A DNA stretch of 64,000 nt from positions 1-64,000 of the forward strand of contig JANYDG010000083.1 of NCBI GenBank assembly GCA_025359885.1. Reading direction: 5' to 3'. The DNA is from Acidobacteriota bacterium (GTDB lineage Bacteria; Acidobacteriota; Terriglobia; Terriglobales; Acidobacteriaceae). Positions 16,578 through 33,313 of the stretch are shown in pieces. Under the pieces are notes generated by a model, which saw only the letters and a list, made by a program, of their open reading frames with translations, was not told where the DNA came from and searched no databases. How positions within the stretch are numbered: the first letter of the stretch is position 1; every line of letters begins with the position of its first letter. Position numbers and translations under genes: made by a program.

Positions 16578-16952
16578 ATGCCTCGCGTCAAACGTGGGAC
16601 AAAACGGTCTGACCGCCGTAAAAAGATTCTGAAGCGCGCAAGCGGCTACTTCCTCACCAAATCCAAGCTTTACCAGGCCGCTCAGGAAGCAGTCGAGCGC
16701 GGACTCAAGTTTGCCTACACCGGCCGTCGCCAAAAGAAGCGCCAGTACCGCGCCCTTTGGATTGTGCGCATCTCGGCCGCCTGCAAGCTGAACAACTTCA
16801 GCTACTCGCAGCTGATTAACGGCCTCAAAAAGGCTGGTATCGAACTGGATCGCAAGATTCTCTCCGATATCGCCATCCAGGACGCACCCGGCTTCACCCG
16901 CCTCGTCGAGCAGGCCCAGGCCGCCCTCGCCGCGGAAAAAGCGGCGAAGTAA
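16578..16952 (+). CDS. rplT: 50S ribosomal protein L20
   Basis: The 124-residue basic protein starts [20 protein letters not shown] and contains the bL20 core with [20 protein letters not shown] and [21 protein letters not shown]20 binds 23S rRNA and is needed for early large-subunit assembly; in several bacteria it also represses its own mRNA. An AAGGAG Shine-Dalgarno lies a few bases before the ATG (16563-16568). A strong intrinsic terminator follows the stop codon by 15 bp. Confidence 0.98.
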
Positions 16953-16967
16953 GGATTCTTCGTCCGC

Positions 16968-17009
16968 AACACTACGGCCCGGAGCGTTGCTCCGGGCCGT
17001 AGTGTTTTT
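16968..17009 (+). terminator. Intrinsic terminator of rpmI-rplT
   Basis: A perfect 18-bp stem, AACACTACGGCCCGGAGC pairing with 16989-17006, has a GTT loop and is followed by a T tract. The stop codon of the convergent minus-strand gene (17008-17010) sits inside the T tract. Confidence 0.95.
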
Positions 17010-17322
17010 ACATCCGCTTCTGGATTTCTTCCTCTTCAGTCCATTCTTCGGCCACAGCGCGTACTTCTTCCCGGCTCCTGCCAAACACCCAAAAGTCTTC
17101 AGATTCCACGAAAATTCCAAAGCCGACTAATATCGCGAAATCCGTCGGACTATTTGCCATAACGAACTCCAGGCGTTGCAACGTTGTCCACTCTGGATAC
17201 TCGAATAAGTCTTCGACTGGGTAGAAGCCGATATCATCTCTGAAACGAAGAGAATAAAACCGCTCTGGACCCCTGATTTCATGCCCTTGTCGACTTTTCC
17301 GGGAATTCGGAATTAAGGCCAT
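17008..17322 (-). CDS. Hypothetical small acidic protein
   Basis: The 104-residue protein is not recognised. It is rich in acidic residues at its C-terminus (AEEWTEEEEIQKRM) and has aromatic-rich segments (YSLRFRDDIGFYPVEDLFEY, VESEDFWVFG). No signal peptide or membrane helix is visible. Its start overlaps the end of the upstream 84-residue gene by 10 bp, so the two are likely co-translated. Both lie downstream of a DpnI-like nuclease gene on the same strand, in an island between rplT and pheS. A role as a nuclease accessory or immunity-like protein is only a possibility. Confidence 0.6.
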   Translation of the reverse strand: MALIPNSRKSRQGHEIRGPERFYSLRFRDDIGFYPVEDLFEYPEWTTLQRLEFVMANSPTDFAILVGFGIFVESEDFWVFGRSREEVRAVAEEWTEEEEIQKRM

Positions 17323-17567
17323 GGATATTCCTCTTCGGCGATTGCGTCAGAAAGGACCAATTCCTTCGTTTTTGTGCCATTTTCAGATGTCCACTCGAGT
17401 AAAGCAATTCTCGCGAGTGGCAGGCCGTCTGGAAACACAATTGTCGTTTGTTCAAGGCTGAACATTTTGTCGAAGTACTGAATGGCGGTGTGCAAGTCTT
17501 TAGCAGACTCGATTTTGAGCGTTTCTTTTACGACCGAAGTAGTCATCCTGGTTCGTCGGCGCATCAA
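17313..17567 (-). CDS. Hypothetical small protein
   Basis: The 84-residue protein is not recognised. The middle reads SAKDLHTAIQYFDKMFSLEQ followed by TTIVFPDGLPLARIALLEW, a helix-then-strand pattern, and the end is acidic (DAIAEEEYPWP). ATG at 17546 is an alternative start that would remove seven mostly basic residues. It overlaps the next minus-strand gene by 10 bp and starts 74 bp after the DpnI-like gene's stop. GC content is lower than in flanking housekeeping genes, which suggests acquisition. Confidence 0.55.
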   Translation of the reverse strand: MMRRRTRMTTSVVKETLKIESAKDLHTAIQYFDKMFSLEQTTIVFPDGLPLARIALLEWTSENGTKTKELVLSDAIAEEEYPWP

Positions 17568-17641: not shown

Positions 17642-18409
17642 TCAATTCAATAATTTATATGTGCCACGCCTTTCGAACCTGAGAACACCCAGATCTCGCA
17701 GGAATTGCAGTTGCTGCCGAATCTTGTCTCGAATGTGCCGGTTATTTGGATAAGCCCGCGCGAACTCGTCTTCCATCGCATACATGTCTTGAAGGTTGAA
17801 CGAACCCCTTTTCAATTTGCGAACCATCTTCAAGGTGAGTAGCGTCCAGCCACGTTGAGTCGTGGACTTTTCGGCAAGCGGCAGGAAGCGCTGGAACCGA
17901 GTGCGCACGTCCTGGAATGGGTGGACGATACCATCGGAAACAACTGAAATTTCACCGTCAATTGGAAGCAGATTCAGGCGGATGTTGCATCCGACCCACC
18001 CGGCTCTCTTTGCCCTGGGACCGAGTGGACGCCGTCGTTCCACTACTTCAGGAATGAGAAAGCTGGAATGAATGGCTGTCAGTGAACTGATTCTCCAATC
18101 GTCGGAGCGCTCAAGCAGGCAGAGTGTGGGTGCCGTCCCCTGTTGGACACGCTGTATCATCGAATCGAAGGCTCCATCGACAAGTCTGCCTCGCGGTCGC
18201 CGCCGAAAAGTCTTCAACTCGTAACGATGGCTGCATCGTTCGCAAACGAAGTCGGTAGCCCGCGTATTGGCACCTGTCCGTTGAACCGAATCGGCCTCGC
18301 AAGCCAAACAATAGACATTTCGGGCAAACCAGTCTTCCGATATAACTCGGGCCTGCTGTGACGCGCTCTTGTAGCCAGTGGCAAGGCTGACATCGCAGAC
18401 GAGATTCAT
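17642..18409 (-). CDS. DpnI-like methyl-directed type IIM restriction endonuclease
   Basis: With the start at 18409 the protein has 255 residues, almost the length of DpnI (254). A PD-(D/E)XK-type active site is seen as Asp53, Glu64 and Lys66 (TDFVCERCSHRYELK), the same numbering as I recall for DpnI. Two CxxC pairs, YCLACE and FVCERC, form a zinc site. The stretch RRPLGPRAKRAGWVGCNI and the C-terminal winged-helix end (IRDKIRQQLQFLRDLGVLRF) also match the DpnI pattern. DpnI cuts G-methyl-A-TC, so the enzyme should attack Dam-methylated incoming DNA and the host should lack Dam methylation. An upstream in-frame ATG at 18460 adds 17 residues not in the family. Assignment rests on recalled family sequence. 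Confidence 0.88.
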   Translation of the reverse strand: MNLVCDVSLATGYKSASQQARVISEDWFARNVYCLACEADSVQRTGANTRATDFVCERCSHRYELKTFRRRPRGRLVDGAFDSMIQRVQQGTAPTLCLLERSDDWRISSLTAIHSSFLIPEVVERRRPLGPRAKRAGWVGCNIRLNLLPIDGEISVVSDGIVHPFQDVRTRFQRFLPLAEKSTTQRGWTLLTLKMVRKLKRGSFNLQDMYAMEDEFARAYPNNRHIRDKIRQQLQFLRDLGVLRFERRGTYKLLN

Positions 18410-18732: not shown

Positions 18733-19119
18733 ATGGCATCCTACATTGCCTATCTCCGCAAAGAGCCCGACAGCGACTACGGCGTCGAATTCCCTGACCT
18801 GCCCGGCTGTTTCAGCGCTGGCAGCACCCTTGAAGAGGCCAAAGCCATGGCCGCCGAGGCGCTGGCCGGGCATGTCTCCGTCCTCGAATCCGAAGGGATG
18901 CCGATCCCAGCCCCCTCCACCCTCGACCAATTAGCAGGCGACCCGCACCGCGGCGACGCCCTGCTGCTGCTTGTCGAACTCGACCCCTCCCTGCTCAAAT
19001 CGGAGCGCGTCAACATCATGATTCCGCGGCACCTGCTGGGGCGCATTGATGCTGTAGCCGGGAGCGGAAATCGATCCCGCTTTCTGGTGGAGGCCGCAGA
19101 AAAGCGTCTTGCCGGTTAG
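18733..19119 (+). CDS. hicB: HicB family antitoxin
   Basis: The 128-residue protein has an N-terminal partial RNase H fold typical of HicB (EPDSDYGVEFPDLPGCFSAG) at residues 10-60. Its C-terminus is a ribbon-helix-helix-like DNA-binding segment (VNIMIPRHLLGRIDAVAG). HicB binds and blocks HicA and represses the operon. The DNA-binding end fits the palindrome found over the hicA -10 box. It is the last gene of the two-gene operon, and pheS follows after about 65 bp. Confidence 0.93.
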   Translation: MASYIAYLRKEPDSDYGVEFPDLPGCFSAGSTLEEAKAMAAEALAGHVSVLESEGMPIPAPSTLDQLAGDPHRGDALLLLVELDPSLLKSERVNIMIPRHLLGRIDAVAGSGNRSRFLVEAAEKRLAG

Positions 19120-19185: not shown

Positions 19186-20259
19186 ATGATGAACCCCGAT
19201 TTAGACCAATCCTTTGCCCAGCTCGAGGCTGAAGCCCGTCAGGGCGCGGCCAGTCTTGGCTCGCCTGAGGCTGTAGAAAACTTTCGCCTCGACTGGCTGG
19301 GCCGCAAGCAGGGCCGGCTGAAGCAGCTCTCTGACCAGTGGCTCAAGGCTGCTCCCGCCGAGGCCAAACGCGAGCTCGGGCAGCGTTTCAACGCGCTCAA
19401 GACGCTCGTAGAATCCCTGCTCGACGAAGCCTCGAGTGCAGGCCCGTCTGACGCCGTGCTGGCCGCCCAAGCCCTCGACATCACCCTGCCCGGCACACGC
19501 CGCCTGCAAGGGGCCGAGCACCCGATCACACGCACCATGAACGAGCTGATTGGCATCTTTGCTGCGCTCGGCTACTCGGTTGGCGTGGGGCCGGAGGTCG
19601 AGACCGATTACTACAACTTCGAGTGCATGAACTTTCCTCCCGGCCACCCGGCGCGCGACACCCAGGACACGCTGGTGATCGCCAACCAGGAGCGGCGCAG
19701 CCTGCGCGACCGCCTGCTGCTGCGCACCCACACCTCGCCGGTGCAGATGCGGACGATGGAGCAATTCGCGCCACCGGTGCGCATCGTCATTCCCGGCAAG
19801 GTGCACCGCAACGATGCCGCCGACGCGACGCATTCGCCGGTCTTCCACCAGGTGGAGGGGCTGTGCGTTGACAGCAACATCACCTTCAGTGACCTCAAGG
19901 GCACGCTGGACCACGCGATGAAGGCGCTCTTCGGCTCAAGCGTGAAGACGCGCTTCTTCCCATCGTTTTTCCCATTCACCGAGCCGAGCGCCGACGTACA
20001 GATTAGCTGCATCTTCTGCGCCGGCAAGGGCTGCCGCAAGTGCAAGCACTCCGGCTGGATTGAGCTGCTCGGCTGCGGCATGGTTGACCCCGCCGTCTTT
20101 GCCTTTGCGGCAGAAAAGCAGCCCGCGTACGACCCCAGAAAGATCAGCGGCTTCGCCTTTGGCATGGGTGTCGAACGCATTGCCATGATGAAGTACGGCG
20201 TCAGCGATATTGGCCAGTTCTACTCGGGAGATATGCGGTTTTTGGAGCAGTTCTCGTAA
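19186..20259 (+). CDS. pheS: Phenylalanine--tRNA ligase alpha subunit
   Basis: The protein of about 357 residues has the N-terminal coiled-coil tRNA-binding arm (LEAEARQGAASLGSPEAVENFRLDWLGRKQGRL) and the class II catalytic core. Motif 2 is seen near HNDAADATHSPVFHQVEGL and motif 3 in FGMGVERIAMMKYG. It forms an alpha2-beta2 enzyme with PheT in the cytoplasm. Possible starts are TTG 19180 and ATG 19186 or 19189; an ATG is preferred. A four-cysteine cluster (CIFCAGKGCRKCKHSGW) is present, as in many bacterial PheS. pheT follows after 46 bp containing a strong hairpin. Confidence 0.97.
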   Translation: MMNPDLDQSFAQLEAEARQGAASLGSPEAVENFRLDWLGRKQGRLKQLSDQWLKAAPAEAKRELGQRFNALKTLVESLLDEASSAGPSDAVLAAQALDITLPGTRRLQGAEHPITRTMNELIGIFAALGYSVGVGPEVETDYYNFECMNFPPGHPARDTQDTLVIANQERRSLRDRLLLRTHTSPVQMRTMEQFAPPVRIVIPGKVHRNDAADATHSPVFHQVEGLCVDSNITFSDLKGTLDHAMKALFGSSVKTRFFPSFFPFTEPSADVQISCIFCAGKGCRKCKHSGWIELLGCGMVDPAVFAFAAEKQPAYDPRKISGFAFGMGVERIAMMKYGVSDIGQFYSGDMRFLEQFS

Positions 20260-32930: not shown

Positions 32931-33313
32931 TCGGCTGGAAGGCGAGTTGAAAGGGTGCTTGCCAATTTGAGGCGTATGCCCTAGCATCCAGCTTAGAGAC
33001 CGGCCTGCGGAGCAGGTGAGCTGGTTAACGCTGGTTGAACCAACATTCATTGAACAGGGACTCGACTCGACAAATCGCTTTTGTGTGCAGTGCCCGCCAG
33101 TCCGGGATGCCTAATGAAGCGCGGAGAGTCCCGCCGTCTTAGGACGGGTTCACCAGCGCATTAGCTCACGGCCGAGCGGGTCGGTTTTCTGCCCCCCTCC
33201 GGGGACATGATCGCTTCGCCCCTCCAAGGCTTTGGTCGCTTCGCTCAGGCCGTTGGGATGTTGCCGGTCGCCAGGATGTTTGTGACCGGTCCGCGAGAGG
33301 CTTCTTCCAACAG
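32931..33313 (+). other. Intergenic region with possible structured RNA
   Basis: The 383-bp gap before the lgt-like gene contains self-complementary text. GCATCC (32979-32984) can pair with GGGATGC (about 33104-33110), enclosing about 120 nt with inner pairing GGC-CTGC with GCAG-T-GCC and a TGGT/ACCA hairpin. Two short hairpins follow: CCGTC/GACGG near 33132-33147 and CCGA/TCGG before TTTT near 33172-33188. Length and layout resemble a 6S-type RNA, but no diagnostic consensus was recognised. Confidence 0.25.

Follow-up and report, generated by a model that had tools for sequence, protein, structure and literature searches.

A gene for a probable DpnI-type endonuclease in a variable cargo slot between rplT and pheS of an Acidobacteriota bacterium

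Introduction

The DpnI locus of pneumococcus includes DpnD, and in Neisseria the Dam-replacing gene, drg, lies at the dam site. R.DpnI from Streptococcus pneumoniae is represented in the PDB (4esj, 4kyw), and the available part of PMC4117772 names Q18, D53, E64, K66, L129, R135, W138, G140, K229 and R231 as acting in DNA or methyl recognition or in catalysis; the same text gives position 138 as histidine or tyrosine in a number of homologues, predominantly those of Neisseria. The pneumococcal DpnI, DpnII and DpnIII cassettes are treated in PMC12707154, where DpnI is credited, in the portion of the article available to us, with contributing protection against DNA from distant sources. The 6mA-dependent endonucleases characterised in PMC11037411 (accessible text) are fusions of a methyl-reading winged helix with HNH, GIY-YIG or PLD nucleases. 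Literature searches for DpnI in Acidobacteria together with Dam methylation and restriction, for the genomic distribution of Dam-replacing/DpnI homologues and for rplT-pheS as a defence hotspot found no paper in the collection searched.

Here, we describe a dpnI homologue within a 64,000-nucleotide stretch of an Acidobacteriota genome (assembly GCA_025359885.1, contig JANYDG010000083.1, positions 1 to 64,000), referred to as the window. The encoded protein has in common with R.DpnI its length, two domains, zinc cysteines, D53/E64/K66, methyl pocket and winged helix, at an identity of 34–37% in structural alignments, whereas its gene, unlike that of R.DpnI, lies between rplT and pheS in the company of orf84, orf104 and hicAB. 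Pneumococcal DpnD was not recognised in the window, as the small ORFs downstream of dpnI (orf84 and orf104) have no Pfam match. The neisserial Dam-replacing product, whose name the Pfam family also carries, aligns with 99% of the window protein at 33.6% identity (two N. gonorrhoeae records); however, the window protein carries tryptophan at position 138, whereas the histidine or tyrosine described in the available part of PMC4117772 occurs in a number of homologues, most of them from Neisseria. In contrast to drg, the window dpnI is not found at a dam site. With the fusion endonucleases of PMC11037411, as far as these are covered in the accessible text, the window protein shares the methyl-reading winged helix, but its nuclease is the DpnI PD-(D/E)XK domain.

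The dpnI homologue and its neighbourhood

The rplT-pheS interval of the window contains dpnI, two small ORFs and a hicA-hicB pair, with the following features (window coordinates):

16578..16952 (+): rplT, encoding ribosomal protein L20; borders the slot on the left
16968..17006 (.): hairpin followed by a T run, 3' of rplT; probable terminator (18 pairs, -37 kcal/mol, z -8.58)
17008..17322 (-): orf104, small protein; shares 10 bp with the end of orf84
17313..17567 (-): orf84, small 84-aa protein; lies on the dpnI strand, 74 bp further downstream
17642..18409 (-): dpnI homologue, 255 aa; PD-(D/E)XK catalytic domain with a C-x2-C / C-x2-C zinc site and a C-terminal winged helix
18537..18728 (+): hicA toxin gene, GTG start (PF07927, E=1.3e-22); divergent from dpnI
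18733..19119 (+): hicB-like antitoxin gene (PF15919, E=9.9e-30)
about 19186..20259 (+): pheS, encoding the alpha subunit of phenylalanyl-tRNA synthetase; borders the slot on the right

A preliminary description of the gene had placed it, without a methyltransferase, in a translation locus. No methyltransferase was indeed recognised among the ORFs of the interval, and the position between rplT and pheS stands; the term translation locus does not, since dpnI is opposite in strand to rplT and pheS and is therefore no part of a translation operon, the interval instead being a variable cargo slot (see below). The cargo is bounded by the rplT hairpin, which was absent from the output of a simple terminator scan and just past which lies the stop codon of orf104, and by the pre-pheS stretch also present at empty sites. 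A search around dpnI for sigma-70-like promoters found none (0.9 expected by chance), this being a weak test for the phylum of the host. Elsewhere in the window, a 6S RNA gene was detected at 32999-33186, above the Rfam gathering score.

Family, predicted fold and functional residues

A sequence search of the PDB with the window protein returned a single distinct chain sequence, that of DpnI (E=2.7e-55, residues 4-253 of 255). Both Pfam domains of the DpnI/Dam-replacing family were found in the correct order and far above their curated cut-offs: DpnI (PF06044) with 168.8 bits (cut-off 26.7; E=1.3e-49) and DpnI_C (PF17726) with 86.9 bits (cut-off 23; E=1e-24) over residues 185-252. PADLOC assigned the protein to mREase_II (methyl-directed type II REase; 1.9e-67), and the NCBIfam scan gave no family above its cut-off. 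The AlphaFold2 model, calculated from a 24-row alignment, reached a pLDDT of 94.2 and recovered the solved DpnI fold: Foldseek reported three matches at E<=0.001, all of them DpnI chains (next match 8.8e-3), with TM scores of 0.88/0.93 for 4esj_B, 0.87/0.90 for 4esj_A and 0.67/0.67 for 4kyw_A, where the lower value may stem from a different domain arrangement. The preliminary description, which had proposed a DpnI-like endonuclease of near-identical length with a C-terminal winged helix, the residues Asp53, Glu64 and Lys66 and two CxxC zinc pairs, is thereby borne out: the match is very strong in both sequence and predicted fold, the length agrees with that of R.DpnI, the DpnI_C domain accounts for the winged helix, and D53, E64 and K66 are present at DpnI numbering, as are C34xxC37 and C56xxC59. 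All ten residues named in the available part of PMC4117772 are found in the window protein, including the methyl pocket L129/R135/W138/G140. The window dpnI is hence a true, intact-looking relative of DpnI, though an unremarkable one, as it belongs to a broad family of enzymes that are widespread across bacteria and archaea. In the slot dpnI of G102, a genome of the same genus (L081, 9530-10294), the methyl-sensing Trp138 is replaced by tyrosine and the adjoining Ala136 by lysine.

Carrying the mechanism over from DpnI, we consider it highly probable (roughly 0.88) that the gene encodes a functional DpnI-type endonuclease that would cut incoming GATC DNA m6A-marked on both strands. Once expressed, such an enzyme would hold both methyl groups in one cleft of its catalytic domain, with L129, R135 and W138 packed on G140, would cleave through D53/E64/K66 and would read the same methyl mark a second time through the winged helix. 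With GATC as its putative target it would act as a barrier when DNA arrives from Dam-positive bacteria, and the host would tolerate it because its own genome appears to be without adenine methylation at GATC; the role proposed is thus the protection role described for DpnI in the available portion of PMC12707154. An m6A-directed nuclease whose target has shifted or relaxed to another m6A context, and which acts on particular phages rather than on Dam-positive DNA in general, would be compatible with the 34–37% identity to DpnI, which leaves room for change, and with the tolerance of the DpnI winged helix for S6mATS given in the accessible text of PMC11037411; we nonetheless regard it as improbable, given that the window protein has every one of the contact residues checked, namely Q18, L129, R135, W138, G140, K229 and R231.

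D53, K66 and the four cysteines are invariant in relatives, both among the GTDB matches listed (80/80) and in proteins from the host's bacterial family (37/37), two sets that partly share genomes. Position 64, by comparison, is glutamate in 50 and glutamine in 30 of the 80 GTDB relatives listed, and glutamate in 23 and glutamine in 14 of the 37 family proteins. Three Glu/Gln changes are needed on the dpnI tree, three being forced by starred branches, and as the tree is unrooted their direction is not given; the window dpnI falls within an Acidobacteriota Glu clade, apart from the Glu clade that bears Streptococcus. No discussion of this alternation was found in the available parts of PMC4117772, PMC12707154 and PMC11037411.

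Methylases and GATC in the host

The host assembly (G000; 4.2 Mb, 125 contigs, 94.8% complete) contains a single dpnI. Its search for methylases gave no match to the D12 methylases (PF02086) at E<=10, to the N6_N4 methylases (PF01555) or phage-type Dam (PF05869) at E<=0.1, or to HsdM-type N6_Mtase (PF02384) at E<=0.01. By these four Pfam families a cognate GATC methylase is absent, an absence that is provisional since a methylase may be missed in an assembly of this completeness and contig number; as judged from sequence, it fits a host that appears to be without m6A at GATC. Avoidance of GATC in DpnI carriers was discarded as a signal, there being no usable difference between carrier and slot loci: the observed/expected ratio of GATC was 0.84 when 40 DpnI loci were pooled and 0.86 for a pool of 51 slot loci, and stood at 0.68 for the window itself, the slot set including at least one genome (G177) with dpnI elsewhere.

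The rplT-pheS interval in related bacteria

The genomes searched for pheS numbered 74, of which 15 belong to the genus of the window and 59 to another, g9, and 69 gave a match; 59 stretches from 58 of these genomes were examined (11 of the 69 being left out), and rplT and pheS were found together in 47. The gap between them measures 102-332 bp in 23 of the 47 and 407-5255 bp in the other 24. The interval is a variable cargo slot, in which related bacteria carry other cargo that includes defence genes. dpnI is present in six of the 47 slots, five times at full length and once cut; an Eco29kI-like R-M pair is found in G407, an AbiL-like AAA gene with an RloB-like gene in G391, a pair starting like that of G391 in G373 (RloB match just below cut-off, AAA gene not scanned) and a PIN-domain gene in G326. 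Matches to hicA- and hicB-like genes occur in the slots of G000, G102, G274, G312 and G379, and to a hicB-like gene alone in G364; ten slots carry an alpha/beta hydrolase (nine judged by eye, one, in G417, scanned), and several long gaps, for instance those of G144 and G402, are without recognised content.

Could the window gene be the endonuclease half of a DpnI/DpnII-like locus, in which an alternative cassette methylates GATC as in the pneumococcus? The slots of relatives do carry other cassettes, namely the Eco29kI-like R-M system in G407, a pair of D12 methylases plus a third gene in G367 and the AbiL-like genes in G391, and the best PDB match of the first G367 methylase is DpnM. However, the 47 linked slots include two that bear a methylase (G407 and G367), and neither is demonstrably GATC-specific. 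The second G367 methylase fits best to the C-terminal half of the 643-aa bifunctional model PDLC03261, and the N-terminal half of that model is the second-best for the first methylase (268 vs 282 bits); as the two thus fit the halves of a bifunctional model, an asymmetric target is indicated and GATC specificity is doubtful. On the same grounds we rejected a DpnI/DpnII swap in G367, which had looked pneumococcal at first, and we judge it extremely improbable that the window gene belongs to such a locus. The G367 pair is presumably FokI-like.

In the G367 slot (L082, 6914-10950), the cut dpnI precedes a small ORF, the pair of D12 methylases and a DUF7226 protein of 344 aa that looks like a nuclease on inspection by eye; the dpnI gene may here have been entered by an R-M system.

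Probable exchange of dpnI, and its small neighbours

Comparison of the window with G102 reveals identities of 100% for rplT, 95% for pheS, 89% for hicA and 97% for hicB, but 58% for dpnI and about 38% for orf84, whereas in G083, which belongs to another genus, rplT is 91%, pheS 83% and dpnI 72% identical. The dpnI tree groups the window with G083 and G229 (100/95), without G102. The slot dpnI thus appears to have been exchanged between genera, and this contrast in identity is most simply read as allelic replacement at the slot, the alternative being an unusually fast divergence of dpnI in G102. On the main reading, dpnI would have entered, along with one or two small genes, the stretch that separates the rplT terminator from the pheS leader.

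The 398 family genomes yielded homologues of orf84 in four (the window's included), each time beside a slot dpnI; as the search model was built from these same four, more distant homologues may have escaped it. In G102 the matched stretch contains one stop, and no orf84 match was obtained at the slot dpnI loci of G229 and G367. orf104 occurs in two loci, with the order kept in G131 at 35% identity. The predicted fold of orf84 was set aside as too poor to use (pLDDT 63.8), and any role alongside DpnI is a guess that rests on linkage. That rplT-pheS in Acidobacteriaceae is a defence-cargo slot in which the dpnI cassette travels with a dedicated, fast-diverging orf84, sometimes joined by orf104, that would modulate or protect against DpnI is a proposal that we regard as unlikely.

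In three loci (L083, L085 and L108), a small ORF of ~80 aa abuts the dpnI start on its upstream side, and dpnI is partial or split in all three; the scanned part of the L085 ORF has no Pfam match. A neighbour cluster of ten loci was dropped, as it resembled antisense ORFs over dpnI.

Distribution of DpnI

Within the host's bacterial family, PF06044 matches were obtained in 48 of 398 genomes (46 above cut-off), distributed over 24 of 79 genera. The protein aligned over >200 residues in 37 of the 48 (the window's included); in the other 11 dpnI is partial, two of these genes (in G052 and G181) being at the end of a contig and the other nine away from one, and dpnI may therefore decay often. This raises the question of whether the window copy is itself decaying or silent and kept in the cargo slot by chance, as would be in keeping with the nine partial genes away from contig ends (for which assembly error is possible) and with the slot dpnI of G367, which breaks off at about residue 140 next to a set of R-M-like genes. 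The window copy, however, is of full length, has the family-invariant residues and yields a high-confidence predicted fold, and we attach a very low probability to its being a remnant, preferring a functional DpnI-type endonuclease. Beyond the family, one scan of GTDB species genomes gave at least 522 confirmed relatives of DpnI, 80 of which span Acidobacteriota, Nitrospirota, Bacteroidota, Bacillota, Pseudomonadota, Patescibacteria groups, archaea and others.

Mutual exclusion of DpnI and Dam-family methylases was not seen in the 398 family genomes: TIGR00571 (Dam-family) exceeds its cut-off in 28 and DpnI is present in 48, and both occur in 3 genomes (G147, G270 and G367) vs 3.4 expected. 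dpnI is partial in G147 and G367, which is 2/3 given 11/48 partial overall (p about 0.13, by hand), and G270 has a near full-length dpnI with a methylase of the bifunctional 643-aa type. With all D12 matches, co-occurrence with DpnI amounts to 10 genomes vs about 11.5 expected. In G147, dpnI is cut at about residue 91 (L085, 9524-9808), and a further locus (L171, 504-3632) encodes a DpnM-like methylase (best PDB match 2dpm), a 208-aa ORF and a DndB-domain protein.

Carriage on phages or plasmids was considered and set aside: a single match, confined to the winged helix, was obtained in 50,697 phage records, and the 72,556 plasmid-collection records gave two, both of them 2.2-Mb N. gonorrhoeae records that resemble chromosomes. 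Viral contigs gave five matches, these being to the winged helix only. The DpnI_C-type winged helix accompanies a PLD nuclease in the viral contig L255 and HNH in L258, and in L256 and L257 it is found in short proteins with no nuclease domain (L256 by Pfam, L257 by eye).

Conclusions

The enzyme itself is of a familiar kind, and its setting is modestly interesting. The rplT-pheS slot provides a defined place in which to seek further defence genes, and the linkage of orf84 offers a concrete candidate partner for DpnI. If active, the window DpnI would act as a barrier against Dam-positive donor DNA in soil Acidobacteria, which are poorly tractable, and plasmid DNA for such hosts would therefore best be prepared free of Dam methylation.
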